A DNA stretch of 64,000 bases from Burkholderia sp. GAS332. Lineage in GTDB: Bacteria > Pseudomonadota > Gammaproteobacteria > Burkholderiales > Burkholderiaceae. Location of the stretch: positions 682,001 through 746,000 of the forward strand of contig FSRV01000002.1 of NCBI GenBank assembly GCA_900142905.1, in the 5' to 3' direction. The notes under the pieces are model-generated. The model saw nothing but the letters and a program-made list of their open reading frames with translations, did not search any database and had not been told where the DNA came from. Shown here piece by piece: positions 7,495 through 20,831 of this stretch. The number at the start of each line of letters is the position of its first letter. The stretch's first letter is position 1. The position numbers were made by a program, and so were the translations under genes.

Positions 7495-8820
7495 TTAGAT
7501 CAGATGAAGGGCTTTGGCCTCGTCCGCGAGCGTCGCGCGGAAATCGGGGTGCGCGAGTCCGATCAGCGCCCGTGCCCGTTCCGTCGACGACAACCCCTTG
7601 AGATTCGCGACGCCGTACTCGGTCACGACGATGTGCGTGTCCGTGCGCGGCGTGGTCACCGGCCCCGAGAGCTTCGGCACGATCTTCGAAAGCGCGCCGC
7701 CCTTCGCCGTGGAATGGAACGCGATGATCGACTTGCCGCCTGCCGACCCGTAGGCACCGCGAACGAAGTCGAGCTGGCCGCCTGTCGCGCTGTACTGATG
7801 CCCGTTCACATGCTCGGAATTGCAGGCGCCGGTCAGGTCCATCTCCACAGTCGAATTCACCGAGATCATCTTCGGGTTCTGCGAGATGATCGCCGGATTG
7901 TTCACGTAGTCCACCGGGTAGCTCTCGATGGAGGGGTTGTCGTTCATGAAGTCGTACATCGCCTGATCGCCCATGGCGAAGGTAAAGACCGACTTGCCGC
8001 GATTCACGGCCTTGTTGCGGTTCGTCACCACGCCGCGCCGGATCAGGTCCACGAGCCCAGGCGTCAGCAGTTCGGTATGCACGCCCAGGTCGCGGTGGCC
8101 ATACAGCGCGCCGCACACGGCATTGGGCAGCGCGCCAATACCCATCTGCAGGCAGGCGCCGTCGGGAATGAGGGTTGAGATCAGATCCGCGATCACGTGA
8201 TCCTTTTCGCTCGCCGGCTTCGGCAGCAGTTGCGGCAGCGGATGATCCGACTCAACAATGGCGTCGACCTCGGAAATGTGCAGCAACGAATCGCCGAACA
8301 CGCGCGGCATGTTCGGATTGACCTCGACCACAAGCCGGCGCGCGGAGCGCGCAACGGCGCTCGTGTAATCGTTGTTGGTCCCGAACGTGAAATAGCCGTT
8401 GCTATCCATGGGCGACACCATCACCAGCATCGTATCGACCGGAATATGGTCGCTGAAAAGACGCGGCGACTGGCTGAAGGTGTTCGGCACGAAGAATACG
8501 ACCTTGCGGTCGCCGTCTTCGGCGCCCTGGCGGATCAGCTTGCGCTCAGGCTCGCCGAGGAACATGCAGTGCGGCTGGATGCGCCCCATCAGTTCGTATT
8601 GCAGCAGCGTCTTGCTGAGAAACGATTCGGCGTGGAAGTAGTAGACCTTCAGCGCATCGACATCGCCCGCACTCGCTCGCGCCGCCAGCGCAGCCAGCAG
8701 CGAAGGCGGCTGGGACATCGCCATGCCGAGCGCCACAGTCGAACCGCTTGCAATCGACGATACTGCTTCATCAGGTGTGCGAAATTTTGAGGAATAGACT
8801 GATTCGTTATTCATAGCCAT
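7495..8820 (-). CDS. ict: Itaconate (succinyl-/acetyl-CoA:) CoA-transferase, RipA/Ict-like
   Basis: 441 residues of the acetyl-CoA hydrolase/transferase (class I CoA-transferase) family. Seen: GIGALPNAV (227-235), the catalytic Glu250 in [10 protein letters not shown], and the GGQLDFVRG block near residue 360. The start at 8820 is preceded by CTAAGGAGC, a strong ribosome site, 5 bp after the hydratase stop; upstream in-frame extension is not coding. The order lyase, hydratase, CoA-transferase reproduces the Yersinia ripCBA/itaconate operon, where this enzyme charges itaconate to itaconyl-CoA. Without the neighbours, 4-hydroxybutyrate CoA-transferase would be an equal guess. Confidence 0.82.
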
Positions 8821-8825
8821 GCTCC

Positions 8826-9353
8826 TTAGTAATTGGCTTCCGCTTCCGGCGAATGTCCGCGCCGGTAGATCAGCATCGTGCGCTCGAACGACATCACCAG
8901 CTTCCCGTCCTGATTGATGCCACGCGTGAGAACCGTCACGATGCCTTGCGTGGGACGGCTTTTCGATTCGCGCTTTTCCAGCACCGTCGATTCCGCATAA
9001 AGCGTGTCGCCCGCAAAGACCGGATGCGTTGCGCGCACGTTGTTCCAGCCGAGATTGGCCACCACCTTGGCGCTCACGGTGCGAACGCTCATGCCCGTCA
9101 GCAGCGCGAGCGTGAAGGTGCTGTCCACCAGCATCTTCTTCCACTCGGTGTGACTCGCGTAGGCCTGGTCGAAGTGCACTGGCTGCGTGTTCATGGTGAG
9201 CAGGGTCATCCAGATGTTGTCGACGTCCGTGATCGTCCGGCCCGGGCGATGCTCGTAGGTGTTTCCGATCTCGAAGTCTTCGTAGTAAAGGCCGGAAACC
9301 TCGCGAAAGCGGTTCTCCGCGATCTTGCGGTAGGCAGCGATGGATTCGCTCAT
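8826..9353 (-). CDS. ich: MaoC-like itaconyl-CoA (mesaconyl-C4-CoA) hydratase, RipB/Ich-like
   Basis: 175 residues with a hot-dog fold MaoC/hydratase-2 domain. The catalytic Asp-Asn pair (ITDVDN, D45/N46) and His60 in NTQPVHFD match the hydratase-2 motif. In the itaconate pathway this enzyme hydrates itaconyl-CoA to (S)-citramalyl-CoA. It starts at an ATG with an AGGAG-type site and is followed 5 bp later by the CoA-transferase gene, so translation is tightly coordinated. The combination with a class I CoA-transferase and a CitE-like lyase is the strongest argument for this substrate. Confidence 0.82.
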   Translation of the reverse strand: MSESIAAYRKIAENRFREVSGLYYEDFEIGNTYEHRPGRTITDVDNIWMTLLTMNTQPVHFDQAYASHTEWKKMLVDSTFTLALLTGMSVRTVSAKVVANLGWNNVRATHPVFAGDTLYAESTVLEKRESKSRPTQGIVTVLTRGINQDGKLVMSFERTMLIYRRGHSPEAEANY

Positions 9354-9386
9354 GACATGCTCCTGGTTGAAATTTAAAAAAAACGC

Positions 9387-10220
9387 TTAGGCACGCGACA
9401 AAACGCGCCGCGCCTCACGGGCGATCGCCTCGTCGACCATACGGCCGTCGACCACCGCTGCACCTTCTCGTGCGGCCTCGATCACGCGGTGCGCCCAGTC
9501 GATCTTTGCGGCGTCCGGTGTCATGGCCGCGTTGATGGGTCCGATGTGGGAAGGGTGGATGGCCGCCTTGCCGTCGAACCCGTTCGCGGCCGCAAACCCG
9601 ATTTCGTGCTCGAGTACGGCGCTATTGCCGATTTCGAAGCATGGCGCGTCGATGGCGCGTATGCCGCTCGCCACGCACGCGGCCGAAATCTGCACGCGTG
9701 CGACAGAAAGCGCGAACGACGCAGGCTGCACGCCAACGTCCCCGGCATAGTCCCCCGCGCCGAACATGACCGCCGCGACACGCGAGGCGGTGGCAAGCAC
9801 CTCCGGCAGCACCACGACGCCCTTGCGCGATTCCACCAGCGGCACCACGCGCGCGTCGCTCGCGACTTCGCGAAGCAGCGCTTCGACCTGCAGGACCGTA
9901 TGTGCTGCCTCCACCTTAGGAATCACGATGAAAGCCGGTTGAAATGCCGCATCGAGCAGCACGGCAAGGTCGTCCAGACCGTTGCGCGAGTTCGGCGTAT
10001 TGATGCGCACCGCGAGCGCGGCGGTAGAGTTGAACGGCTGGCTGAGCAGGTCGCCCAACTGGCGGCGGGCGATGGTCTTTTCTTCGGGACGCACGGCGTC
10101 CTCCAGATCCACGATCAGCACATCGGCCCCCGCCGGGCCGGCTTTGGCGAAACGCTCGGGGCGCGTCGCAGGAGTGAACAGCCAGGACCGGGTTTTCGTC
10201 TCGACGTCGCGAGTATTCAT
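9387..10220 (-). CDS. ccl: (S)-citramalyl-CoA lyase, CitE/HpcH family, RipC/Ccl-like
   Basis: 277 residues, TIM-barrel HpcH/HpaI family. N-terminal SWLFTPATRPERF and DVLIVDLEDAV, the metal-binding Glu in VVPLVESRKG and Asp in MFGAGDYAGDVG are all present, as in CitE-like citramalyl-CoA and malyl-CoA lyases. Predicted reaction: (S)-citramalyl-CoA to acetyl-CoA and pyruvate. The start at 10220 is supported by a GGAGGT ribosome site; the upstream extension of the frame is discarded. First gene of the operon after its LysR regulator, with a 127-bp gap holding the likely promoter. Confidence 0.83.
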   Translation of the reverse strand: MNTRDVETKTRSWLFTPATRPERFAKAGPAGADVLIVDLEDAVRPEEKTIARRQLGDLLSQPFNSTAALAVRINTPNSRNGLDDLAVLLDAAFQPAFIVIPKVEAAHTVLQVEALLREVASDARVVPLVESRKGVVVLPEVLATASRVAAVMFGAGDYAGDVGVQPASFALSVARVQISAACVASGIRAIDAPCFEIGNSAVLEHEIGFAAANGFDGKAAIHPSHIGPINAAMTPDAAKIDWAHRVIEAAREGAAVVDGRMVDEAIAREARRVLSRA

Positions 10221-10347
10221 TGCTTCACCTCCAGAAGTTCGATTGCCAACGGGGTTCATTCTCTGTCCCCATCGGCTCCTGAACAATCGCTGATTGGCGA
10301 AGCCAGACTCAACCCGAACCGAAACCGGCGCTTCTTGTGCTTTTTTA

Positions 10348-11250
10348 TCAGCCGGTGGCGGCGCCAAGGCGCGCGAGATGTTCGACGAGCCGCCGGGTGG
10401 AGGAAGGCAGCCGCTCGAGGTCGTTTACGCAGATCAGGATCTTGCGCACGGCCCACGCGTCGGTGATGCGCAGCAGACGCACCCGCATCGAGCGTTGAAA
10501 CCGCCGCGCCGCCGACTCAGGGAGTACCGCGACGCCCACGCCGTTTTCGACCAGGCGGCAAATCGACGCGAAGTTGCCAAGCTGGATGCGGTGCCGCAAG
10601 CTGCGATGCAGCCGCTTCGCCTGATATTCGAGGAACACCTGAATCGACGAGCCGCGTTCGTGACCAACGAAATCAGCTTCGATAAGATCGGCAAAGGCGA
10701 TCTCCCGCTGCAGCGCGAAGCGTTCGTCGACTGCGGGCACAACCGCGCACAGGCGGTCGGTGGCAAAGGGAAACGTCGTGAGCGCCACGCCCTCGGGCGG
10801 CGAAGCGATGATGCCGATATCGGCCACGCCTTCCGCAATGGCCGCGATGATCTCATCGCTCGGACGCTGCTCGATTTCGATGTTGATGTTGGGGTTGTCG
10901 CAGAGAAAGCGGCTAAGCGGGCCAGGCAGCGTCTCGACAAGTGCATTCGTGTTCGAGAGGATGCGGATGGTCCCCCGCATCCCCTGGGAGAACTGTGCGA
11001 GGTCGTCCGTCATGCGTTGTAGCGCGCCGAGGGTGGTCCGCGCGTGGCGCAGGAAGGTCTGCCCCGCCTCCGTGACGCGTATGCCGTGAGGCCGACGCTC
11101 CAGCAGCGGCACACCTACCGCCTCCTCCATCTGCCGGATACGCGCACTGACTGCCGCGAGCGAGAGGTTGACGCGGGCTGAGCCGTGCGTAAGGCTGCCA
11201 GCTTCGGCGACGGCAACGAAGGTTTGAAGGTCGACAAGGCCAAAATGCAT
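10348..11250 (-). CDS. LysR-family regulator of the itaconate-type operon (ItcR/RipR-like)
   Basis: 300 residues. The N-terminal winged HTH (LVDLQTFVAVAEAGSLTHGS...LSLAAVSARIRQME) starts right after the ATG at 11250, and the C-terminal effector domain is complete. It lies directly upstream of and in the same orientation as ccl-ich-ict, unlike the usual divergent layout. It is clearly a paralogue of the LysR at 19908-20831: shared GVVG/GTIR-L-NT, NP-I-IE-E, AD-GI-A, DRLCAVVP/DHLVLVVP and WA-R--LIC--DL blocks. This suggests similar effectors, probably C5 dicarboxylates or their CoA-free products. Confidence 0.85.
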   Translation of the reverse strand: MHFGLVDLQTFVAVAEAGSLTHGSARVNLSLAAVSARIRQMEEAVGVPLLERRPHGIRVTEAGQTFLRHARTTLGALQRMTDDLAQFSQGMRGTIRILSNTNALVETLPGPLSRFLCDNPNINIEIEQRPSDEIIAAIAEGVADIGIIASPPEGVALTTFPFATDRLCAVVPAVDERFALQREIAFADLIEADFVGHERGSSIQVFLEYQAKRLHRSLRHRIQLGNFASICRLVENGVGVAVLPESAARRFQRSMRVRLLRITDAWAVRKILICVNDLERLPSSTRRLVEHLARLGAATG

Positions 11251-11628
11251 GGGATAACACACCGGGAAGTGAGTCTGGACTCGAATGGACGGGCCACGAG
11301 GCTCGCCTGCGAGAAGCATACCTGGCTTTACGCATAGATTTGCGAGAAAAGTCCGTAACTTCAGGCATCGGACGCCAGACTTCAAATGGCTAAAGTCGGA
11401 CTGCCGACAGGGCCGGGCGTAAAGATTTCTCCATCCTTGTCGATATACAGCCTGAAGTGCCGCTCCATCGTGTGGCCGACAATGTGCACCGCTATGCCAG
11501 GAAGCGGGGCTGAAATCAGGTAGTCACGTGTTCCGGCGATGATTCAGGAGCCCGGTTGACGATAAGCAACGGCTGACAATTGATAGCTGGTTGAAAGCAG
11601 GCCGACTGCAAACACAATCCGGAAGGCT
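11251..11628. other. Intergenic region between divergent lysR and GGDEF-EAL gene
   Basis: 378 bp with no credible gene. It should hold the lysR promoter (minus) and the promoter for the c-di-GMP gene (plus). A weak TTGACG at 11556 is visible but without a convincing -10 partner. No repeats or terminators were seen. Confidence 0.5.
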
Positions 11629-13929
11629 ATGATTCGAATCACGAGGTCCCTACTGGCAAAACCGGCCCTGTTCATTTTCGCCGGGATCGGGATCACGCTT
11701 GCCACCACCGGCGTCACGGCAGTCGCGTTGTACCAAATGAGGCTTGACGCCATGGCGCAGGCCCGCGATACCGCACAGAACCTCGTGATCTCCCTGCAGA
11801 AGGAGACCGAGCGCAATCTCGACATCTGCCAACTTGCCATGCGGGATGTCGTGACAAGTATGACGGCCCCCAGTATCGGCCAACTCACTCCCGATGCCCG
11901 CCAGCTCATCGCTTTCAGCGCGGCCAATAATGTCAGGGAACTGGGCGCGATATTCGCAGCAGATGCGGCTGGCAACAGCGTCCTCGACTCCCGTTGGACT
12001 GTGCCGCCCAAGCTCAATGTAAGCGACCGCGATTTCTTTCAGGTTCAACAACAGCAGAAAGGGGCTGGCTTGTATCTCAGCAAGCCCTTCGTGCCACGCG
12101 TGGGCAACTCTGGGCAACCGTCGATCGCGCTGAGCCTGCGTCTTGATGATGCCAATGGCCACTTCGCCGGCATTGTTGCAGGTACGCTCCGGCTAAGCTA
12201 TTTCCACCAGCTCTTCGAAGACTCGATACTCGGCGCTCACGGAACCCTTACCCTGTTGCGCACAGACGGGACTGTCCTGATGCGTCAACCGTATCGCCGG
12301 GACGATATAGGCAGCACGCTCGCGGGCGGCCATTCCTTTCCCCCGCTCGTGCAATCGGCTCACGGAACTTATGTCGACGTTGCCGTGCTCGACCACATCG
12401 AGCGCCTATACAGCTTCAGGCGGATCGGGGACTATCCACTGGTCGTGGTCGTTGGTCTTGCGACTGAGGATATCTACGCCGGGTGGCGTAAGCGGGCGTT
12501 TGCGATTGGTATCGTGACTGCCATGCTGGATGTGCTTACCATCATGCTGTCTATGATGTTCAGCGGACAATTGCGCAGGCGACTCGCCATGGAGCGTCAG
12601 TTGCAGACGCTGGCATGGTTCGATGCCTTGACCGGCTTGCCCAACCGGGCACAACTCAACAAGGAAACGCTCCGTATCCTGACGGACGCCAGCCGGAATT
12701 CGTCACAGTTCGCGATACTGTTCATCGATCTGGACCGTTTCAAGCGCGTCAACGACACGCAGGGACATTCCGCCGGTGACGAAGTGTTGAGCGAAATCGC
12801 GCGGCGTTTGCGCAATTGCATCCGGGGTGAGGACGTGATCGGCCGCCTCGGTGGAGACGAGTTCCTGGCCGTCCTGCAAAATTGTGACGTACATAGGGCA
12901 GCCCACTTAGCCGCGCGCATCCTGCAGGCCCTGTACCAGCCTATCACCGTCAACGCAAAGTACGACACCCGCATCACGCTCAGTGCGAGCATCGGCGTCT
13001 CACTGTATCCCTACGACGGGCAGGACGCCGATACATTGCTACGTAATGCAGACATGGCGATGTACAAGGCGAAGAGCACGGGACGTAATCAGGTGCATTT
13101 CTACGCTCCGCTGTATGAGCGTCAGGCCAAAGAGCAGCTCGAACTGGAAATCGCGCTGCAGCGAGCCTTGCAAGGGAGCGCCCTGAGCGTCGCCTACCAG
13201 CCCAAGGTCGATGTGACGGGAACACTGCACGGAGCCGAAGCTTTGGTTCGGTGGAACGACAAGAAACTGGGGATCGTTCCGCCAGACCGCTTCATCGCCA
13301 TCGCGGAAGAAAGCGGCCTGATCGCCGAACTGGATGCCTGGGTGCTGAACGAGGCCTGCCGTCAACTCGCTGAGTGGCGCGCCGAGGGCATCGATGTAGC
13401 AAACATATCAGTGAATGTCTGTGCCGCTGACTTCAAGCGTCCAGATTATGCTGGCTTTATCGCGTCCACCCTGCAGGCTCATGGTCTGGAGCCTGCAGAC
13501 CTCATTCTGGAAATGACCGAGCGAGTTCTGTTTGACGAGTCGGCCGATGACATTCGCACATCGCTCGATGCAATACATGCCCTTGGAATAGCGCTGTCGA
13601 TCGATGACTTCGGTACGGGCTACTCGTCCCTAAGCTATCTGCACCGATTCCCCGTCAAAGAACTGAAGATTGACAGAAGCTTTGTGCGGGGTATCGGGGC
13701 CGATGCAATGGCCGAATCTCTGGCACAGACGGTAATAAATATTGGCAACGTGCTTAAGCTGAGCGTCATCGCTGAAGGCGTGGAAACGCAGGGACAGCGC
13801 GACTTCCTGCATCACCACGGTTGCCTGATGTACCAGGGATATCTATACTCGCCGCCGCTGCAACCGGGAGACTTTGCGCGCTGGGCAGAAACGCATCGGC
13901 AGCAAACACCCATTAGCGAATCAGGCTGA
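11629..13929 (+). CDS. Membrane-bound dual diguanylate cyclase/phosphodiesterase with periplasmic Cache sensor
   Basis: 766 residues: TM1 (about 14-34), a ~245-residue periplasmic region of dCache type, TM2 (about 283-305), GGDEF and EAL domains. The GGDEF motif is intact (residues 408-412), with an intact inhibitory I-site RGED five residues upstream, so cyclase activity with product feedback is likely. EAL residues 537-539 and the later EMTER, IDDFGTGYSSL, KIDRSF and IAEGVET motifs are all present, so phosphodiesterase activity is likely too. It lies between the two predicted C5-dicarboxylate operons on the opposite strand; whether its sensor domain reads the same compounds is only a conjecture. 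Confidence 0.92.
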   Translation: MIRITRSLLAKPALFIFAGIGITLATTGVTAVALYQMRLDAMAQARDTAQNLVISLQKETERNLDICQLAMRDVVTSMTAPSIGQLTPDARQLIAFSAANNVRELGAIFAADAAGNSVLDSRWTVPPKLNVSDRDFFQVQQQQKGAGLYLSKPFVPRVGNSGQPSIALSLRLDDANGHFAGIVAGTLRLSYFHQLFEDSILGAHGTLTLLRTDGTVLMRQPYRRDDIGSTLAGGHSFPPLVQSAHGTYVDVAVLDHIERLYSFRRIGDYPLVVVVGLATEDIYAGWRKRAFAIGIVTAMLDVLTIMLSMMFSGQLRRRLAMERQLQTLAWFDALTGLPNRAQLNKETLRILTDASRNSSQFAILFIDLDRFKRVNDTQGHSAGDEVLSEIARRLRNCIRGEDVIGRLGGDEFLAVLQNCDVHRAAHLAARILQALYQPITVNAKYDTRITLSASIGVSLYPYDGQDADTLLRNADMAMYKAKSTGRNQVHFYAPLYERQAKEQLELEIALQRALQGSALSVAYQPKVDVTGTLHGAEALVRWNDKKLGIVPPDRFIAIAEESGLIAELDAWVLNEACRQLAEWRAEGIDVANISVNVCAADFKRPDYAGFIASTLQAHGLEPADLILEMTERVLFDESADDIRTSLDAIHALGIALSIDDFGTGYSSLSYLHRFPVKELKIDRSFVRGIGADAMAESLAQTVINIGNVLKLSVIAEGVETQGQRDFLHHHGCLMYQGYLYSPPLQPGDFARWAETHRQQTPISESG

Positions 13930-13969
13930 GCTCGGTTCACGTTTCCACGAGAGGCCCACAACCGGCCCG

Positions 13970-15328
13970 TCATTCCGGCATACCCTTGCCACGCGTTTCA
14001 GGAAGGAACCACGGAACGATGATGCCTATCAGATAGCACGAGCTCATGATGAGCGCGGCATGCGATACGCCACCGAATGCCTTGATCATCGAACCGGAGA
14101 TGATCGGGAAGACCCATGCGATCAGGCGTGCGGCGTTGAAGACGAAACTGATCGCGGTCGAGCGAACCGTCGACGTGAACAGTTCGCACGGATAGATCGC
14201 CATCCACGCGTACCCGCATCCCAGCGTGAAAAACCCGTTGATCGGCGCGATGATGACCATGCCGCTCACCGTCGCGGTGTAGCGATAGGTGATGATCGTG
14301 GTGATCAGCGAGCCGACGAAGGTCGCGCTCAGGAATGCGCGCCGGCCGATCGAGTCGACGATGAAGCCCGCTGCGAGATAGGCGACGATCGCGCCCGCCG
14401 TATAGAGGATCGAAATCCGCGAGCCCCACGCGACGGCATCGGCCACGCCCGTCGCTTTCGCGAGCGCAACCGTATAGGTCGGTAGCCAGCTAGAGATCGC
14501 CCACCAGCCGGTCGTGGCGACGATCGACAGAACCGTCGTCAGCAGCGTGCGGCGAAGCGCCTCGCGCTCGGTGAACAGTTGCTTGAGCGTAAAGGGGCGG
14601 GCGTTCTGCTTGCCAGGTCGCGAGGTGTACCGGATAGCCTCGTCGGAGGTCGCATTCCAGCGCTGTTCCTTCACGGCCTGTTTCCACTTCTCCGACTCGC
14701 TCAACCCACGGCGCAGGTAGAGCACGAAGAACGCGGGCAGCGCACCGGCGATGAACATCAGACGCCACGTTTCCCCACCCAGCGGTTGCGTGGAAGCCAG
14801 CGCGTACCACACCACGGCGGCGAGCAGCGTGCCCCAGCCAAAACCGGATTGCAGGAAGCCGGCACCCTTGGCGCGGGCATGTTCCGGCCAGGTCTCCGAC
14901 ACCAGCGCGACGCCTGTGCTCCATTCGCTGCCCATTGCAAGCCCGGTGAGAAATCGCAACAGGCATAGCACGGCGAAGGTGTTGGAAAAGGCGGTCAGCC
15001 CGGAGAACAAGGCGTAGAGGAATACTGACCACAGCATCATACGTTTGCGCCCGACGTAGTCGGCGAGAATGCCGCCGACCATGCCGCCCGCGCCCCAACC
15101 GAGCAAGGTGATGCCGATCACGCCACCCGCATAGACGGGCGTCGAGAGGGCCTGGGCCGGCGTCAGCACCGATTTGAGCATCGGCGCGAGCACGACCACG
15201 AGCGCGAGCGCCTCGAAACCGTCGAAGATCCAGCCGAGGAAGGCGCCTCGCAGCACGCGCCAGTGCGTACTCGTCAGCCCGTCGTACCAGCGTGTTTTAG
15301 GCGGCTGCGCGATATGGGTGTTTTGCAT
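13970..15328 (-). CDS. MFS transporter (sialate/aromatic-acid:H+ symporter-like), last gene of LeuCD-like operon
   Basis: 452 residues, 12 predicted transmembrane helices. The MFS signature between TM2 and TM3 is clear (GGILADYVGRKRMMLWS), and the N-terminal RGAFLGWIFDGFEALALVVV places it near the NanT/4-hydroxybenzoate symporter group, which often carries carboxylates. A strong AGGAGACACC ribosome site precedes the ATG. It follows the HMG-CoA-lyase-like gene by 86 bp on the same strand, so it is probably the uptake system for the operon's substrate, predicted to be a C5 branched dicarboxylate such as citraconate. Specificity cannot be read from sequence. Confidence 0.85.
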   Translation of the reverse strand: MQNTHIAQPPKTRWYDGLTSTHWRVLRGAFLGWIFDGFEALALVVVLAPMLKSVLTPAQALSTPVYAGGVIGITLLGWGAGGMVGGILADYVGRKRMMLWSVFLYALFSGLTAFSNTFAVLCLLRFLTGLAMGSEWSTGVALVSETWPEHARAKGAGFLQSGFGWGTLLAAVVWYALASTQPLGGETWRLMFIAGALPAFFVLYLRRGLSESEKWKQAVKEQRWNATSDEAIRYTSRPGKQNARPFTLKQLFTEREALRRTLLTTVLSIVATTGWWAISSWLPTYTVALAKATGVADAVAWGSRISILYTAGAIVAYLAAGFIVDSIGRRAFLSATFVGSLITTIITYRYTATVSGMVIIAPINGFFTLGCGYAWMAIYPCELFTSTVRSTAISFVFNAARLIAWVFPIISGSMIKAFGGVSHAALIMSSCYLIGIIVPWFLPETRGKGMPE

Positions 15329-15414
15329 GATGGTGTCTCCTGAAGGACCTTGCCTGGACGTTTTCTTTGATCGTCTGCGAGCAAGGCCCAGTTAAAACAT
15401 CAAAGTAAACAATG

Positions 15415-16410
15415 TCAGGCACGCGATTGAGCGGATGCGTCACGCTGCATGGCTCGCTCACGGATCGCGGCAAAGTCGGCCGGGAGTGGATGCAGGTCGA
15501 GCCGCCGCCCGGCCTTCACGATCTGGCTCGGCGTATCGTGGCCGATCAGCGCCGGCAAGCGCTTCGATGCGTCGATGAGCGCGCCCAGATCGACGCCTGT
15601 GTCGTAGCCCATCAGTTCGAGCGCGTGCACGATCTCCTCGCTGCATACGTTGCCGCTGGCGCCCGGCGCATAGGGACACCCCCCGATGCCGCCCAGCGAC
15701 GCGTCGAAGCGGTCGGCGCCCGCATCGATCGCGGCGAGTACGTTGGCAAGGCCCATGCCGCGCGTGTTATGAAAGTGCAGCGTGAACTCGGTCTGAGGCC
15801 AGCGCTCGACGCATCGCGCTGTCAGCGCGGCGACCTGCTGCGGATAGGCCATGCCGGTCGTGTCGCATAGCGTGACGCCTTGCGCGCCGCCTTCCTCAAT
15901 GAAGCGTCGCGTCCACTCGATCACAGTATCTGTCGGTACGTCGCCCTCCATCGGGCAGCCGAATGCGCACGATAGCGAGATGTTGACCGCGAGTCCGGCA
16001 TCGCGGGCGATGCCGGCAACCTGCTTGAGCCCATTGAACGACTGCTCGCGCGTCATCCGCAGGTTGGACAGGTTGTGGCTCTCGGTTGCCGACATCACGA
16101 GATTCAGCTCGTCCGCGCGCGCCTCAATTGCGCGTTCGGCGCCGCGCAGGTTCGGCACGAGTGCCGTATAGACGACGCCCGGCTTGCGCTTGATCTCACG
16201 CATCACGATCTCGGCGTCGCGTAACGCGGGAATCGCTTGCGGCGACACGAAAGCCGTCACCTCGATCTTCGCCATGCCTGTTTCGGAAAGCGCATCGATC
16301 AGCGCAATCTTGTCGCGGGTCTCGACGAACGTGCCTTCCGACTGAAAACCATCGCGCGTGCCGACTTCCTGCATGTAAATGCGCCGGCGTTCTCCGTTCC
16401 AGATGTTCAT
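15415..16410 (-). CDS. HMG-CoA lyase family enzyme, predicted (R)-citramalyl-CoA lyase
   Basis: 331 residues, HMGL TIM barrel. Catalytic features are intact: Arg19-Asp20 in GTRDGFQ, the metal ligands His212 and His214 in LHFHNTRGMG, and Cys245 in GIGGCPYAPGASGN. Family members cleave 3-hydroxy-3-methylglutaryl-CoA or, as in Chloroflexus, (R)-citramalyl-CoA to pyruvate and acetyl-CoA. Its start overlaps the stop of the class III CoA-transferase gene by 4 bp (ATGA) with an AAAGGAG site inside that gene, so the two are translationally coupled. No leucine- or isovalerate-degradation genes are nearby, which favours citramalyl-CoA over HMG-CoA. Confidence 0.82.
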   Translation of the reverse strand: MNIWNGERRRIYMQEVGTRDGFQSEGTFVETRDKIALIDALSETGMAKIEVTAFVSPQAIPALRDAEIVMREIKRKPGVVYTALVPNLRGAERAIEARADELNLVMSATESHNLSNLRMTREQSFNGLKQVAGIARDAGLAVNISLSCAFGCPMEGDVPTDTVIEWTRRFIEEGGAQGVTLCDTTGMAYPQQVAALTARCVERWPQTEFTLHFHNTRGMGLANVLAAIDAGADRFDASLGGIGGCPYAPGASGNVCSEEIVHALELMGYDTGVDLGALIDASKRLPALIGHDTPSQIVKAGRRLDLHPLPADFAAIRERAMQRDASAQSRA

Positions 16411-17624
16411 GCGATTGCTCCTTTGTCACGCAGTTCGGCAATCCGGCTTTCGGAGAGCCCAATCTCACGCAAGATGTCTTCGGTGTCGTCACCGAGTTTC
16501 GGCGCGGAAGAACGCACCGAGCCCGGCGTGCCCATCAGCTTGGGCACGATGCCCGGCACGTCGACGTCATAGCCGTCGCGCGTGGTCTGCCGCAAGATCA
16601 TGTCGCGTGCGCGGTAGTGCGGATCTTCGGCGATATCGCGGGCCGTATAGATCTTGCCCGCTGGCACCCGCGCTTCGGTCAGCGTGGCCAGCACATCTTC
16701 GGTCGAACGTTGTGCGGTCCACGCTTCAATGGCCTGGTCCAGTTCGTCAACCTGCGCGACACGCCCGGCGTTGTTCGCGAGCGCGGGGGCGTCCGCCAGA
16801 TCCTTGCGGCCGATCGCAATCATGAGCCGCTTGAAGATGCTGTCGCCGTTGCCGGCGATGAGCACATAGCCATCGTCACATCGATACGCATTGGAGGGGG
16901 CGATGCCGGGCAGGGCGCTACCGGCGGCTTCGCGGACCGCCCCGAACGCGCTGTACTCGGGAATCAGGCTCTCCATCACGTTGAAGACCGCTTCGTGAAG
17001 CGCGACGTCGATGACTTGCCCCTTGCCGCCGTTCACGTCGCGGTGATAGAGCGCGGTGAGCACGCCGATCACGCCATGCAGTGCGGCGAGCGTATCGCCG
17101 ATCGAGATGCCGCAGCGCACCGGCACGCGGCTGGGTTCCCCGGTCAGATGACGCAGGCCACCGACCGCTTCGCCGATCGAGCCGAAGCCCGGCAAATCGC
17201 GGTAGGGTCCCGTCTGGCCATACCCCGAGATACGAAGCATGATGAGCCGGGGGTTCAGCTCGGCCAGTTGCTCGTAGCCCATCCCCCAGCCTTCGAGCGT
17301 GCCCGGCCGGAAGTTCTCGATGAGGACGTCGGCCTCGGCAATCAACTGGCGCGCGATGGTCTGGCCTTCAGGGGTGCGCAGATCGAGCGCCAGTGAGCGC
17401 TTATTGCGCGACTGCACCTGCCACCACACGGACGTACCGTCTTTCATCAGCCGCCAGTTGCGCAGCGGATCGCCGGCACCCGGCGGCTCGATCTTGATGA
17501 CCTCGGCGCCGAATTCGCCGAGCGTCTTGCCGGCGAACGGGCCGGCAATCAGTTGACCCATCTCGATCACCCGCACGCCTTTAAGCGCGGCGGGCGTGCC
17601 TGGAAAAGAAAGTTGGCTGTTCAT
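16407..17624 (-). CDS. CaiB/BaiF (class III) CoA-transferase, predicted citramalate CoA-transferase
   Basis: 405 residues. The family's N-terminal block (VIEMGQLIAGPFAGKTLGEFGAEVIKIEPP) and ENFRPGTLEGWG are present, and the catalytic Asp is Asp177 in CGISIGDTLAALHG. Class III enzymes move CoA between carboxylates via an Asp-anhydride; succinyl-CoA:citramalate CoA-transferases belong here. The start at 17624 (ATG after AGGAGTTTTCACG) is chosen because conservation begins there; a much longer open frame upstream is an antisense artefact over leuD. It is coupled to the HMGL-family gene, which implies that its product thioester is the lyase substrate. Confidence 0.85.
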   Translation of the reverse strand: MNSQLSFPGTPAALKGVRVIEMGQLIAGPFAGKTLGEFGAEVIKIEPPGAGDPLRNWRLMKDGTSVWWQVQSRNKRSLALDLRTPEGQTIARQLIAEADVLIENFRPGTLEGWGMGYEQLAELNPRLIMLRISGYGQTGPYRDLPGFGSIGEAVGGLRHLTGEPSRVPVRCGISIGDTLAALHGVIGVLTALYHRDVNGGKGQVIDVALHEAVFNVMESLIPEYSAFGAVREAAGSALPGIAPSNAYRCDDGYVLIAGNGDSIFKRLMIAIGRKDLADAPALANNAGRVAQVDELDQAIEAWTAQRSTEDVLATLTEARVPAGKIYTARDIAEDPHYRARDMILRQTTRDGYDVDVPGIVPKLMGTPGSVRSSAPKLGDDTEDILREIGLSESRIAELRDKGAIA

Positions 17625-17671
17625 CGTGAAAACTCCTGAGACTGCGTTCGGTGTCCAAAAGGCGCGTTGCC

Positions 17672-18310
17672 TTAACTGAACAGCCAAGGCTCTCGAGCGC
17701 GGCGGGCGCGCTCGTACTCGCGGATGCGGTCGGCCTGGCCGAGCGTCAGCGCGACGTCGTCCAGCCCTTCGAGCAGACGGCGCTTGCGTTCCGGTTCGAT
17801 CCCGAACGGGATCGCGTCGCCGTCGACGGGCCGGATGGTTTGCGCCTCCAGATCGATCTCGAGTCGCAAACCGGACGGACGGGCGACGAGGTCGAACAGG
17901 TTCTGGACAATGCCTTCGTCGAGCCTGATCGGCAGCAACCCATTCTTGAAGCAGTTGCCGTAGAAGATGTCCGCGAAGCTCGGTGCGATCAGCGCGCGAA
18001 TACCGAAATCCGACAAGGCCCACACCGCATGCTCGCGGCTCGACCCGCAGCCGAAGTTGTCGCGCGTGAGCAGAATCCGGGCGTCCGCGAAGCGTGCCTG
18101 GTTGAGGGGGAAGTCCGGATTGCGCTGGCGGCTCGAGATGTCCTGCCCGGGCTCGCCGTGGTCCAGGTAGCGCCATTCATCGAACAGATTGGCGCCGAAG
18201 CCGGTGCGCTTCACCGATTTCATGAACTGCTTGGGGATGATCGCATCGGTGTCGACGTTCGCGCGGTCGAGCGGCACCACGAGCGCCTCCAGTCGGGTGA
18301 AGGGTTGCAT
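17672..18310 (-). CDS. leuD: LeuD-like small subunit of isopropylmalate isomerase-type hydro-lyase
   Basis: 212 residues, the normal length for bacterial LeuD. The swivel-domain signature [18 protein letters not shown] and the [12 protein letters not shown] block are present. With the LeuC-like partner it forms a [4Fe-4S] hydro-lyase. Its ATG overlaps the leuC stop by one base (TGATG). Because the operon continues with CoA-transferase and lyase genes, and lacks leuB and leuA, this pair probably hydrates a C5 unsaturated dicarboxylate such as citraconate rather than serving leucine synthesis; IPM isomerases are known to accept citraconate. Biosynthetic leuD remains the alternative. Confidence 0.9.
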
Positions 18311-19743
18311 CAGAGACCTCCGCGGGAAATATCGACGAAGTGACCTGCGATGGCAGCGGCTGCGGCCATCGCGGGACTGACGAGGTGGCTGCGGCCGCCG
18401 GGGCCCTGGCGGCCTTCGAAGTTCCGGTTGGACGTCGACGCGCATCGTTCGCCCGGGCGCAACCGGTCGTCGTTCATGCCGAGACACATCGAGCAGCCCG
18501 GTTCGCGCCATTCGAAGCCCGCCGCCTTGAAGACGGCGTCGAGACCTTCGGCTTCGGCCTGCGCCTTGACGAGTCCCGAGCCCGGCACCACCAGCGCGAG
18601 CTGGATGGTCGGCGCAACGTGCTTGCCCTTCACGACTGCCGCGGCCACGCGCAGGTCTTCAATGCGCGCGTTCGTGCAGGAGCCGATGAAGATCTTGTCG
18701 AGCGTGATGCGCTCGAGCGGCGTGCCCGGCTCGAGGCCCATGTATGTCAGCGCGCGTGTCATACCGGCGCGACGCACCAGGTCGGGTTCATCCGACGGGT
18801 TCGGTACGGCGGCGTCGATCGAGACCACCATTTCGGGCGACGTGCCCCAGGTGACCATCGGCCGCAAGCGTGTGGCATCGATGTCGACGGTTTTGTCGAA
18901 GTGCGCTCCCTCGTCGCTGACGAGCGTGCGCCAGTAAGCCACCGCCGCGTCCCAGTGCGCTTCGCCTGGCGCGAAGGGACGCCCCTTCACGTAATCGATC
19001 GTGACGTCGTCAACGCCGATCAGCCCGACTCTCGCGCCCGCTTCGATCGCCATGTTGCACACGGTCATGCGGCCTTCCATCGACAGCGCCCGGATCGTGC
19101 TGCCCGCGAACTCCATCGCGTAGCCGGTGCCGCCGGCGGTGCCGATCTGGCCGATGATCGCGAGCACGAGGTCCTTGGCCGTCACGCCGGGCGGCAGTTC
19201 GCCCTCGACGTTGACGCGCATCGACTTCATCCGCTCGACCAGCAGGCATTGCGTCGCGAGCACGTGTTCAACTTCCGAGGTGCCGACGCCGAATGCGAGC
19301 GCCGCGAAAGCACCATGCGTACTCGTGTGCGAATCGCCGGCCACGACCGTCATGCCTGGCAACGTCGCACCCTGTTCCGGGCCCACGACGTGGATGATGC
19401 CTTGCCTCGTGTCACGAATGCCGTAAGACCGGATGCCAAATTCATTGCAGTTCTTGTCGAGTTGCGCGACCTGGATCCGTGAAAGCGGGTCCGCGATCGC
19501 GTCGATGCTGGTCCGCTCAGCCGCCAGCGTGGGCACATTGTGATCGGCTACCGCGAGCACCGTGTCGGGCCGCCACGGGGTGCGGCCGGACAGGCGCATC
19601 GACTCGAACGCTTGCGGGCTGGTGACCTCATAGACGAGCTGACGGTCGACATACAGGAGCGTCGGGCCATCAGGTGTTTCCGACACGACGTGGCTTTGCC
19701 ACAGCTTGTCGAACAACGTACGGGGCGTAGTCGCGGGCTGCAT
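18310..19743 (-). CDS. leuC: LeuC-like large subunit of isopropylmalate isomerase-type hydro-lyase
   Basis: 477 residues, slightly longer than typical LeuC. Three cluster cysteines are evident: one in [14 protein letters not shown] and two in [12 protein letters not shown]. The substrate-serine motif [12 protein letters not shown] is also present. Start taken at the second ATG (19743), which has GGAGAC six bases upstream; the first ATG is at 19761. First structural gene of a five-gene operon (leuC, leuD, CoA-transferase, lyase, MFS) with its LysR immediately upstream in the same orientation. The aconitase-type reaction (hydration/dehydration of a substituted malate) is certain at family level; the substrate is inferred from context. 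Confidence 0.92.
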
Positions 19744-19876
19744 GAGGCTGTCTCCATCCATTCATATGAAAGAATGCTTGCTTGGCCTGCCAGCTATGTC
19801 CGGCAAGGCTGCTTGTCTATGGAGACTTATTCTCCTCGCGCGATCCCGTGAGCGGAATGCAACAGTGTGGAACCCA

Positions 19877-19897
19877 GCTTTCGCGGAACGCGAAAGC
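19877..19897. repeat. Perfect hairpin just downstream of lysR and upstream of leuC
   Basis: Perfect 9-bp inverted repeat GCTTTCGCG-GAA-CGCGAAAGC with a 3-nt loop, 10 bp after the lysR stop codon. There is no T-tract on either strand, so it is either a weak or Rho-assisted terminator for lysR or a protein-binding site upstream of leuC. Confidence 0.6.
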
Positions 19898-19907
19898 GCG
19901 CCGTGCG

Positions 19908-20831
19908 TCAGCGGGCCGAGGCTTGGGTCGCCTCCGGCGCCGCGTGGGTCAGATGGTCGACGAGCAGCCGCGCCGGTTTCCTCAGCGCTTTCAGATCGCG
20001 AGCGCAGATGAGCAGTTCGCGGTGAGCCCAGTCTTCCGCGAGGTCGATCTTGTGCAAGTCCATCGACTTCAGGTGCGGGCGTACCGCGGCGTCGGGCAGC
20101 ACGGCAATGCCGAGCCCGGCGGCAACCATCAGGCACATCGCATCGAAGCTACGGACCTGAATGCGCAGTTTCAATTGTCCGCCCGAAAAAGCGGTAGCGG
20201 CCTGAAGGCGTTTGGCAAGCGAGGTATTGCGCGACAGGCTGACGAAGTCGAACTCCAGCGCGTCGACGAACGATACTGGCTCGCGCCGGGTCAGCGGATG
20301 GCCGCCGGGCACGACCAGGACCAGATGGTCGTGGCGATAGGGCATGGTCTGAAGGCCGAGCGTGGGCATCTGGTCGGCCATGATGCCGAAATCGGCCGCG
20401 CCGTCCACCACAGCGAGAGCAACCTGTTCGCTATCCTGTTCTTCCAGTTCAATGCGGATTTCCGGATTGCTGGCATTGAACGCCGCGATCTCCGACGGCA
20501 GGAACTGCGTCACCGCCGACGTGTTGGCCCACAGCCGAACGACCCCCACGACGCCGGCCGCATAGTCCGACATATCGGCCGTCATCAGGTCCACGTCGTT
20601 CAGAATACGCTGCGCGTGAAGCTTGAGCGCCTCACCCGCCGCGGTGAGCGTAATGCCGCGTGAGTGGCGTTCGAATAGCTCGGCACCGATTGTGGATTCG
20701 AGATCCGCTATGCGCTTGCTCGCGGCGCCGATCGCCAGGTGGGCGAGTTCGGCGCCCTTGCTGATGCTGCCGCTTCGAACAATGAGTGCGAAAAGCGAGA
20801 GTGAGACGAGATCGAGACGATGAAGGTTCAT
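19908..20831 (-). CDS. LysR-family regulator of the LeuCD-like operon
   Basis: 307 residues. The N-terminal winged HTH is clear (LVSLSLFALIVRSGSISKGAELAHLAIGAASKRIADLE), and the effector domain is complete through a short Ala-rich tail. Same strand as, and 164 bp upstream of, leuC. It is a close paralogue of the LysR at 10348-11250, with the unusual N-terminal AIGAASKRI variant. The shared subfamily of both regulators supports the idea that the two operons respond to related small acids. The start ATG at 20831 is unambiguous. Confidence 0.87.
   Translation of the reverse strand: MNLHRLDLVSLSLFALIVRSGSISKGAELAHLAIGAASKRIADLESTIGAELFERHSRGITLTAAGEALKLHAQRILNDVDLMTADMSDYAAGVVGVVRLWANTSAVTQFLPSEIAAFNASNPEIRIELEEQDSEQVALAVVDGAADFGIMADQMPTLGLQTMPYRHDHLVLVVPGGHPLTRREPVSFVDALEFDFVSLSRNTSLAKRLQAATAFSGGQLKLRIQVRSFDAMCLMVAAGLGIAVLPDAAVRPHLKSMDLHKIDLAEDWAHRELLICARDLKALRKPARLLVDHLTHAAPEATQASAR

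Follow-up and report, generated by a model that had tools for sequence, protein, structure and literature searches.

Chloroflexus aurantiacus possesses an (R)-citramalate coenzyme A (CoA)-transferase and an (R)-citramalyl-CoA lyase, which together convert (R)-citramalate to pyruvate and acetyl-CoA, and citraconase, together with the breakdown of citramalate in pseudomonads, belongs to classical chemistry; the citraconase of the 1960s, the maleate hydratase HbzIJ and the dimethylmaleate hydratase DmdAB represent related hydratases. The present analysis concerns a gene cluster, operon 2, located at positions 13970-20831 (minus strand) of a 64,000-nucleotide stretch of Burkholderia sp. GAS332 (C2:682001-746000 of a 10.4-Mb genome in three contigs; hereafter, the window), in which a LysR-type regulator gene is followed by leuC, leuD, a CaiB/BaiF-type CoA-transferase gene, an HMGL-type lyase gene and an MFS transporter gene. 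Beside it lies a second cluster, operon 1, which resembles the ict-ich-ccl (ripABC) genes of itaconate degradation. The accessible part of one report names citraconate, an isomer of itaconate, among antibacterial and immunomodulatory acids and states that Pseudomonas putida equipped with the itaconate cluster of Pseudomonas aeruginosa grows on itaconate, mesaconate and (S)-citramalate, (R)-citramalate and citraconate not being used (PMC9875883); itaconate genes alone, therefore, need not cover the (R)-citramalate/citraconate branch. No bacterial gene set for citraconate use is named in the accessible portions of the literature searched.

We lean, if only slightly, toward a catabolic role of operon 2 in the breakdown of citraconate, of its hydration products or of both. 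The gene families that an earlier reading made from the sequence only had placed here were all recovered, and the operon comprises the following genes:

13970..15328, minus strand: MFS transporter, closing operon 2 (scoring highest with the aromatic acid/H+ symport model TIGR00895, at 166 bits; cut-off, 419)
15415..16410, minus strand: HMGL-type lyase, predicted (R)-citramalyl-CoA lyase (NF004283, 326.5 bits; cut-off, 246)
16407..17624, minus strand: CaiB/BaiF class III CoA-transferase, predicted (R)-citramalate CoA-transferase (PF02515, 422.6 bits)
17672..18310, minus strand: LeuD-type small subunit of an aconitase-family hydratase, predicted catabolic paralogue (TIGR00171, 252.2 bits; cut-off, 116.25)
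18310..19743 (or 19761), minus strand: LeuC-type large subunit, predicted citraconate hydratase with LeuD (TIGR00170, 737.3 bits; cut-off, 560.25)
19908..20831, minus strand: LysR-type regulator heading operon 2 (PF00126 and PF03466)

The reading frames of LeuC and LeuD, and those of CaiB and HMGL, overlap by a few bases, and a GGAG sequence lies just upstream of each of leuC, leuD, caiB and the HMGL and MFS genes. In the proposed pathway, the MFS carrier would import the acid, following which LeuCD, acting as a [4Fe-4S] hydratase, would hydrate citraconate to (R)-citramalate or isomerize erythro-3-methylmalate to the same product. CaiB would then transfer CoA, probably from succinyl-CoA, to the C4 carboxylate, and HMGL would cleave the resulting (R)-citramalyl-CoA to pyruvate and acetyl-CoA, with LysR presumed to induce the operon. 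The neighboring ict-ich-ccl operon would take itaconate through (S)-citramalyl-CoA. The gene families, their order, the paralogy and the recurrence are established from sequence; the substrates and their configuration, the donor of CoA, the acid transported and the inducing compound are all predictions.

Both LeuC and LeuD exceed the cut-offs of the isopropylmalate (IPM) isomerase models (737 versus 560 bits and 252 versus 116 bits, respectively), and the 477-amino-acid LeuC carries GSCTN at position 354 and CSMC at position 417, which we take to be the [4Fe-4S] cysteine motifs. Counting LeuC types along with aconitases, the genome has seven matches to the aconitase family, and the separate biosynthetic leuCD on which the sequence-only reading depended is present as leuCDB-asd (L139, C2 at ~3.586 Mb), with 68% (LeuC) and 63% (LeuD) identity to the window pair. 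The latter has neither the biosynthetic context (leuB, asd) nor the biosynthetic clade, its neighbors being CaiB and HMGL. In a tree of 35 LeuC sequences, the CaiB-linked proteins of Paraburkholderia, Ramlibacter, two Hydrogenophaga metagenome-assembled genomes (MAGs) and a Comamonadaceae MAG form one clade (support, 99/95), which also takes in a contig-end Ramlibacter fragment and has the LeuC of genome G024 as its sister (96/92), while the biosynthetic LeuCs of the same genomes constitute a separate clade (99/94). In a second tree, of 26 LeuC sequences, those of Cupriavidus campinensis and Advenella fall within the CaiB-linked clade (100/99), those of Cupriavidus necator N-1 and G024 lie beside it with weaker support (90/97), and those of Sphingobium and Burkholderia glumae and the second LeuC of Paraburkholderia xenovorans lie outside it; the biosynthetic LeuCs are not resolved as a single clade in this tree. 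The placement of the long branches (x_Cgrimmiae and x_window_prpD in the former tree, Sphingobium and x_phenazinium in the latter) is unsure. Judging from the presence of biosynthetic leuCDB genes elsewhere and from the grouping of the operon-2 LeuC with those of like clusters, the operon-2 LeuCD is a catabolic paralogue apart from the biosynthetic copy. That it is a mere second copy for leucine synthesis is disfavored by the 35-LeuC tree. A further LeuC/LeuD-like pair of the same genome (L138, C2:2406000-2425000, at 7501-17104), with 49% and 39% identity to that of the window, neighbors an MFS transporter, a lyase that resembles PrpB but scores under the cut-off, and two proteins of 488-505 amino acids which look MmgE/PrpD-like by eye and had no NCBIfam match; these genes possibly specify a separate substituted-maleate or dimethylmalate-type route.

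Recurrence of the cluster was assessed in the best 80 of 435 confirmed loci (the named loci), several of which reach contig ends and whose flanks were fetched up to 10 kb per side (shorter at contig ends), in a same-family sample of 200 genomes with 117 strong HMGL places counted by eye (E <= 4.1e-100), and in 18 plasmid regions, 6 picked by LeuC and 12 by CaiB or HMGL. Of the named loci, 79 of 80 contain CaiB, and in 78 the distance from its end to HMGL is no more than 150 bp, the exceptions being L119, which has only HMGL at a contig end, and L112, with an extra gene between the two; neighboring genes mostly encode LysR plus a Bug/TctC-type binding protein or an MFS transporter. The neighborhood search for LeuCD-CaiB-HMGL clusters proposed in the sequence-only reading was productive, as LeuC and LeuD lie between LysR and CaiB in nine of the 80 loci (L058, L059, L060, L063, L078, L081, L082, L101 and L111). 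In addition, a contig of L080 ends with LeuD, the LeuCD of L123 is more distant and lies ~4 kb downstream, and L061 (Paraburkholderia phenazinium) has partial LeuC (45%) and LeuD (39%) matches at 7751-8737, with LysR, CaiB, HMGL and MFS whole. Within the same-family sample, LeuC lies within 10 kb of HMGL in at least 7 of the 117 places (G000, which is the own genome, G024, G031, G058, G100, G105 and G145), and in G034 LysR-LeuC-LeuD and CaiB-HMGL-MFS occupy different contigs. The full order LysR-LeuC-LeuD-CaiB-HMGL-MFS recurs in Paraburkholderia solitsugae, P. polaris and P. elongata at 93-98% identity, and LysR-LeuC-LeuD-CaiB-HMGL, with enzymes 64-88% identical, in P. xenovorans, P. lycopersici, Ramlibacter, the two Hydrogenophaga MAGs and the Comamonadaceae MAG, LeuD and CaiB being separated by a single binding-protein gene in some of the latter clusters. 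By its nearest named HMGL loci, the genome of the window is Paraburkholderia-like. The MFS gene is also present in L058-L061, G034, G051, G024, G058 and G105. Since this gene order recurs across relatives, it is more than a product of chance.

Most of the loci examined harbor CaiB-HMGL without LeuCD, and the core would therefore suit a hydroxyacid, with LeuCD as an add-on: LeuCD is an optional front end, while the stable core is CaiB-HMGL. Neither CaiB nor HMGL was found in ~17 kb around the C. campinensis and Advenella LeuCDs. Among plasmid-borne copies of the core, that of Mitsuaria sp. 7 (L212, 1-3986 and 9662-14434) is flanked by an annotated C80 peptidase and a TcdA/TcdB pore-forming domain. 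Near the CaiB-HMGL genes of L205 (11838-12845) and L211 (7991-9001) are members of the SMP-30/gluconolactonase family, together with genes for a D-2-hydroxyacid dehydrogenase and a dicarboxylate symporter; such neighbors hint that the precursor may be a lactone or a hydroxyacid.

Residues R19, D20, H212, H214, C245 and N254 of HMGL, presumably the metal-binding and catalytic ones (R-D, HxH, Cys and Asn), are kept in all 80 named loci, as is N116-L-R118-M. The KNIN and LGDTIG-type motifs of solved 3-hydroxy-3-methylglutaryl (HMG)-CoA lyases are missing from the window protein, which carries NLRMT and TLCDTTGMA instead. Its nearest solved relative by sequence is 6nds of Acinetobacter baumannii, with the motifs NMRMT and TLADTTGMA, an entry titled as an HMG-CoA lyase complexed with CoA and the C5 acid 3-methylmalate. 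RMT and TL-DTTGMA are common to these two proteins and absent from the human, Brucella, Bacillus subtilis and Pseudomonas chains; of the other HMGLs of the genome, L142 and L143 are without them, and L141 and L144 are mixed. A mediocre AlphaFold model of HMGL (12 close sequences; mean predicted local distance difference test score, 69.6; predicted template modeling score, 0.73) was used solely to list the titles of solved relatives. CaiB, in turn, carries an Asp within SIGDTLA, which we take to be the catalytic residue, and in Streptomyces a CaiB 52% identical to it adjoins the citramalate synthase CimA (489 bits; cut-off, 450). On a plasmid of Streptomyces cadmiisoli (L210, 3300-9551), genes for an asparagine synthase, a citramalate synthase, CaiB and a P450 stand in a row, possibly reflecting a biosynthetic use of citramalyl-CoA. 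As for LeuCD, the accessible text of PMC5882075 states that 3-isopropylmalate dehydratase turns citramalate into citraconate, in agreement with the earlier suggestion that an IPM isomerase may act on these acids.

The C5-dicarboxylate substrate put forward in the sequence-only reading is thus favored by 6nds, by the CaiB-CimA neighborhood of Streptomyces and by the recurrent pairing with aconitase-family proteins, while its exact identity is less secure, as it could be another 2-substituted maleate. Several observations weigh against citraconate and (R)-citramalate. CaiB reached no cut-off in NCBIfam (best, NF052585, 280 of 750 bits), the 6nds ligand might be adventitious, and certain relatives of LeuCD are found among gentisate-type or intradiol-dioxygenase genes, so that maleate or another substituted maleate is possible. 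Furthermore, the class III mesaconate CoA-transferase of Haloarcula is inactive on (R)-citramalate according to the available part of the report (PMC5592240).

Hydratases other than LeuCD were also encountered beside the core. In L180, from another family of the class and one of four contexts fetched in its search, CaiB-HMGL with a divergent LysR is followed by a sodium-solute symporter and a 659-amino-acid PRK07229-type protein (826 versus 612 bits). A run in Peribacillus frigoritolerans encodes, in order, GntR, CaiB, large (HacA-type) and small (LEUD_arch) hydratase subunits, an HMGL (41% identical, with a variant signature), a member of the Asp/Glu racemase family, tartrate dehydrogenase and an SLC13 permease. 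Plasmid regions picked by CaiB or HMGL contain both genes in 10 of 12 cases and a hydratase in 1 of 12, and those picked by LeuC contain CaiB and HMGL in two of six, a distant CaiB in one and a biosynthetic leuCDB in one. The former two are plasmid pBB2 of C. necator N-1 (LysR-CaiB-HMGL-leuC-leuD-TctC) and pl4 of Sphingobium AntQ-1 (CaiB-HMGL-leuC-leuD), and G145 has the order LysR-CaiB-HMGL-LeuC-LeuD; no mention of the pl4 leuCD, CaiB or HMGL genes was found, with the terms used, in the accessible part of PMC9836352. More tentatively, and with greater doubt than belief, we suggest that these clusters may represent a modular pathway, widespread but undescribed, for which aconitase-family hydratases (LeuCD, HacA-type or PRK07229-type) would have been recruited repeatedly. 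Together with CaiB and HMGL, the hydratase would convert citraconate and other 2-alkylmaleates to a 2-oxoacid and acetyl-CoA; the pathway would serve imported C5 acids as well as the lower steps in the degradation of (methyl)aromatics, and would complement the itaconate route, which is (S)-specific.

Foremost among the alternatives, though in our view unlikely, is that the substrate is another 2-substituted maleate or a 2-hydroxy-2-alkylsuccinate, such as one set free when a substituted maleylpyruvate is hydrolyzed during (methyl)gentisate degradation, the chemistry (hydratase, CoA-transferase and retro-Claisen lyase, yielding a 2-oxoacid and acetyl-CoA) being the same. On plasmid 24p of Advenella mimigardefordensis (L197, 6836-15589), a LeuCD of the same catabolic clade (LeuC, 70%) lies, with two IS481 copies, beside genes for a cupin resembling gentisate dioxygenase, a hydrolase of the FAH family and a protein annotated as 3-hydroxybenzoate 6-monooxygenase, and could be the maleate/citraconate hydratase of a gentisate pathway; this stretch, however, is without CaiB or HMGL. 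The C. necator N-1 module (L194, 2502-14044) adjoins genes for a citryl-CoA lyase-like protein, an acyl-CoA ligase and an intradiol-type dioxygenase, and by eye the G145 module (L217, 110-11920) has the same neighbors. The window MFS protein is closest to the aromatic-acid symport model, and two gentisate dioxygenases over cut-off are encoded elsewhere in the genome, but operon 2 itself includes no aromatic ring-cleavage gene. The acid released from a methylgentisate would be citraconate itself, in which case this alternative merges with the citraconate reading. Two further LeuCDs were observed in surroundings of this type. A single run on a B. glumae plasmid (L199, 3360-10889) encodes an intradiol dioxygenase, a citryl-CoA lyase-like protein, a flavin hydroxylase, CaiB (33%), LeuC, LeuD and a hydroxypyruvate-isomerase-like protein, and is a case of LeuCD plus CaiB with another lyase. 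In P. xenovorans LB400 (L183, C2:590000-608000), a LeuCD (63/58%) at 8388-10456, whose LeuC is sister to that of the B. glumae plasmid, has in its vicinity a fumarylacetoacetase gene and a gene resembling that of 3-hydroxybenzoate 6-monooxygenase.

Isopropylmalate catabolism, in which LeuCD would convert 3- to 2-isopropylmalate, CaiB would form the CoA ester and HMGL would reverse the LeuA reaction to give 3-methyl-2-oxobutanoate and acetyl-CoA, would accord with the IPM-isomerase scores and the 68/63% identity to the biosynthetic pair, as the isopropyl pocket may be kept. We regard it as improbable, given that operon 2 has no branched-chain oxoacid gene, that HacA-like and PRK07229-like hydratases replace LeuCD elsewhere, and that the ligand in 6nds is a C5 acid. 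Use of CaiB and HMGL for 3-hydroxy-3-methylglutarate (meglutol) or leucine-derived HMG-CoA, with LeuCD as a bystander or leucine-synthesis backup, is very improbable: HMGL does pass the HMG-CoA lyase subfamily model PRK05692 (326.5 versus 246 bits) and 9br7, named succinate--hydroxymethylglutarate CoA-transferase, is among the solved relatives of CaiB, but four other HMGL-family genes exist in the genome, two with KNINCS and VAGLGGCPYAKG motifs, the window HMGL family departs from solved HMG-CoA lyases at conserved positions, the window LeuC clade is separate from biosynthetic LeuC, and HMG has no carboxylate beside its hydroxyl-bearing carbon, which aconitase-family hydratases need.

Operon 1 (7495-11250, minus strand) comprises, in reading order, LysR, ccl, ich and ict:

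7495..8820, minus strand: ict/ripA-like class I CoA-transferase, predicted itaconate CoA-transferase (PF13336, 212 bits; PF02550, 50 bits)
8826..9353, minus strand: ich/ripB MaoC-type itaconyl-CoA hydratase (NF038241 RipB_Ich, 358.4 bits; cut-off, 340)
9387..10220, minus strand: ccl/ripC-like CitE-type (S)-citramalyl-CoA lyase (NF038242 RipC_Ccl, 291.5 bits; PF03328, 121 bits)
10348..11250, minus strand: LysR-type regulator upstream of the itaconate operon (PF00126 and PF03466; start, ATG at 11250)

The start of ict is at 8820 or 8814, from sequence, and its domain-search query began at 8790. Ich exceeds the RipB/Ich equivalog cut-off, and Ccl, with a query without the first Met, falls under that of RipC/Ccl (291.5 versus 375 bits), for which reason its product is classed as RipC-like. 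As the class I CoA-transferase adjoins the hydratase and the CitE-type lyase in the RipABC arrangement, the earlier assignment of these genes holds: operon 1 is RipABC-like, with a predicted activity on itaconate. A second Ich-like protein (58%) is encoded at C1:4601548-4602009 of the genome. The ccl and MFS genes are ~3.75 kb apart, close to the 3.8 kb given previously, and between the operons a GGDEF/EAL protein with a dCache-type sensor is encoded on the plus strand (11629-13929).

The side-by-side position of the two operons, on which the sequence-only reading had laid stress, is true of the window but did not extend to relatives. In the fetched flanks of the 80 named loci, no match to ict, ich or ccl reaches 40% (L086 has a 28% ich-like match), and in the draft genomes of P. 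solitsugae and P. polaris a 98-99% identical ich is on a contig other than that of the LeuC cluster. Overall, an ich match at E <= 1e-40 was present in 6 of 15 genomes searched, three of them (the own genome included) at 98-100%. A conserved double unit was consequently rejected, and adjacency of the operons is known only from this genome among the relatives examined.

Should the citraconate reading of operon 2 hold, loci of this type are mislabeled as "leuC/leuD" and "hydroxymethylglutaryl-CoA lyase", engineering could draw on a gene set for the use of citraconate and (R)-citramalate, and it would become possible to test how some methylated aromatics are processed in their lower route; its interest lies mainly in being directly testable and in the correction of gene labels. 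In line with the earlier statement that no account of operon 2 as a citraconate pathway was known, no description of a LeuCD-CaiB-HMGL citraconate cluster was recognized in the accessible open-licence full-text literature, a scope outside of which most subscription journals fall.

The Chloroflexus pair and the old citraconase work mean that the chemistry proposed is not of a new kind. Like that pair, operon 2 has a class III CoA-transferase adjoining an HMGL-type lyase, whereas the former is not known to be accompanied by a LeuCD hydratase, LysR or MFS transporter. Operon 1 is of the RipABC (Ict-Ich-Ccl) type, with which operon 2 would share its end products, but in operon 2 an Fe-S hydratase would act on the free acid ahead of CoA transfer, the transferase would be of class III and the lyase of the HMGL type, and the configuration would be (R) rather than (S). 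In common with the LeuCD isomerase, HbzIJ, DmdAB and citraconase, its hydratase is a two-subunit member of the aconitase family, predicted to act on maleate-type acids; unlike HbzIJ and DmdAB, it is linked to CaiB and HMGL and not to gentisate or nicotinate genes. The operon-2 HMGL, finally, is, among solved structures, nearest by sequence to A. baumannii 6nds, with which it has its motifs in common.

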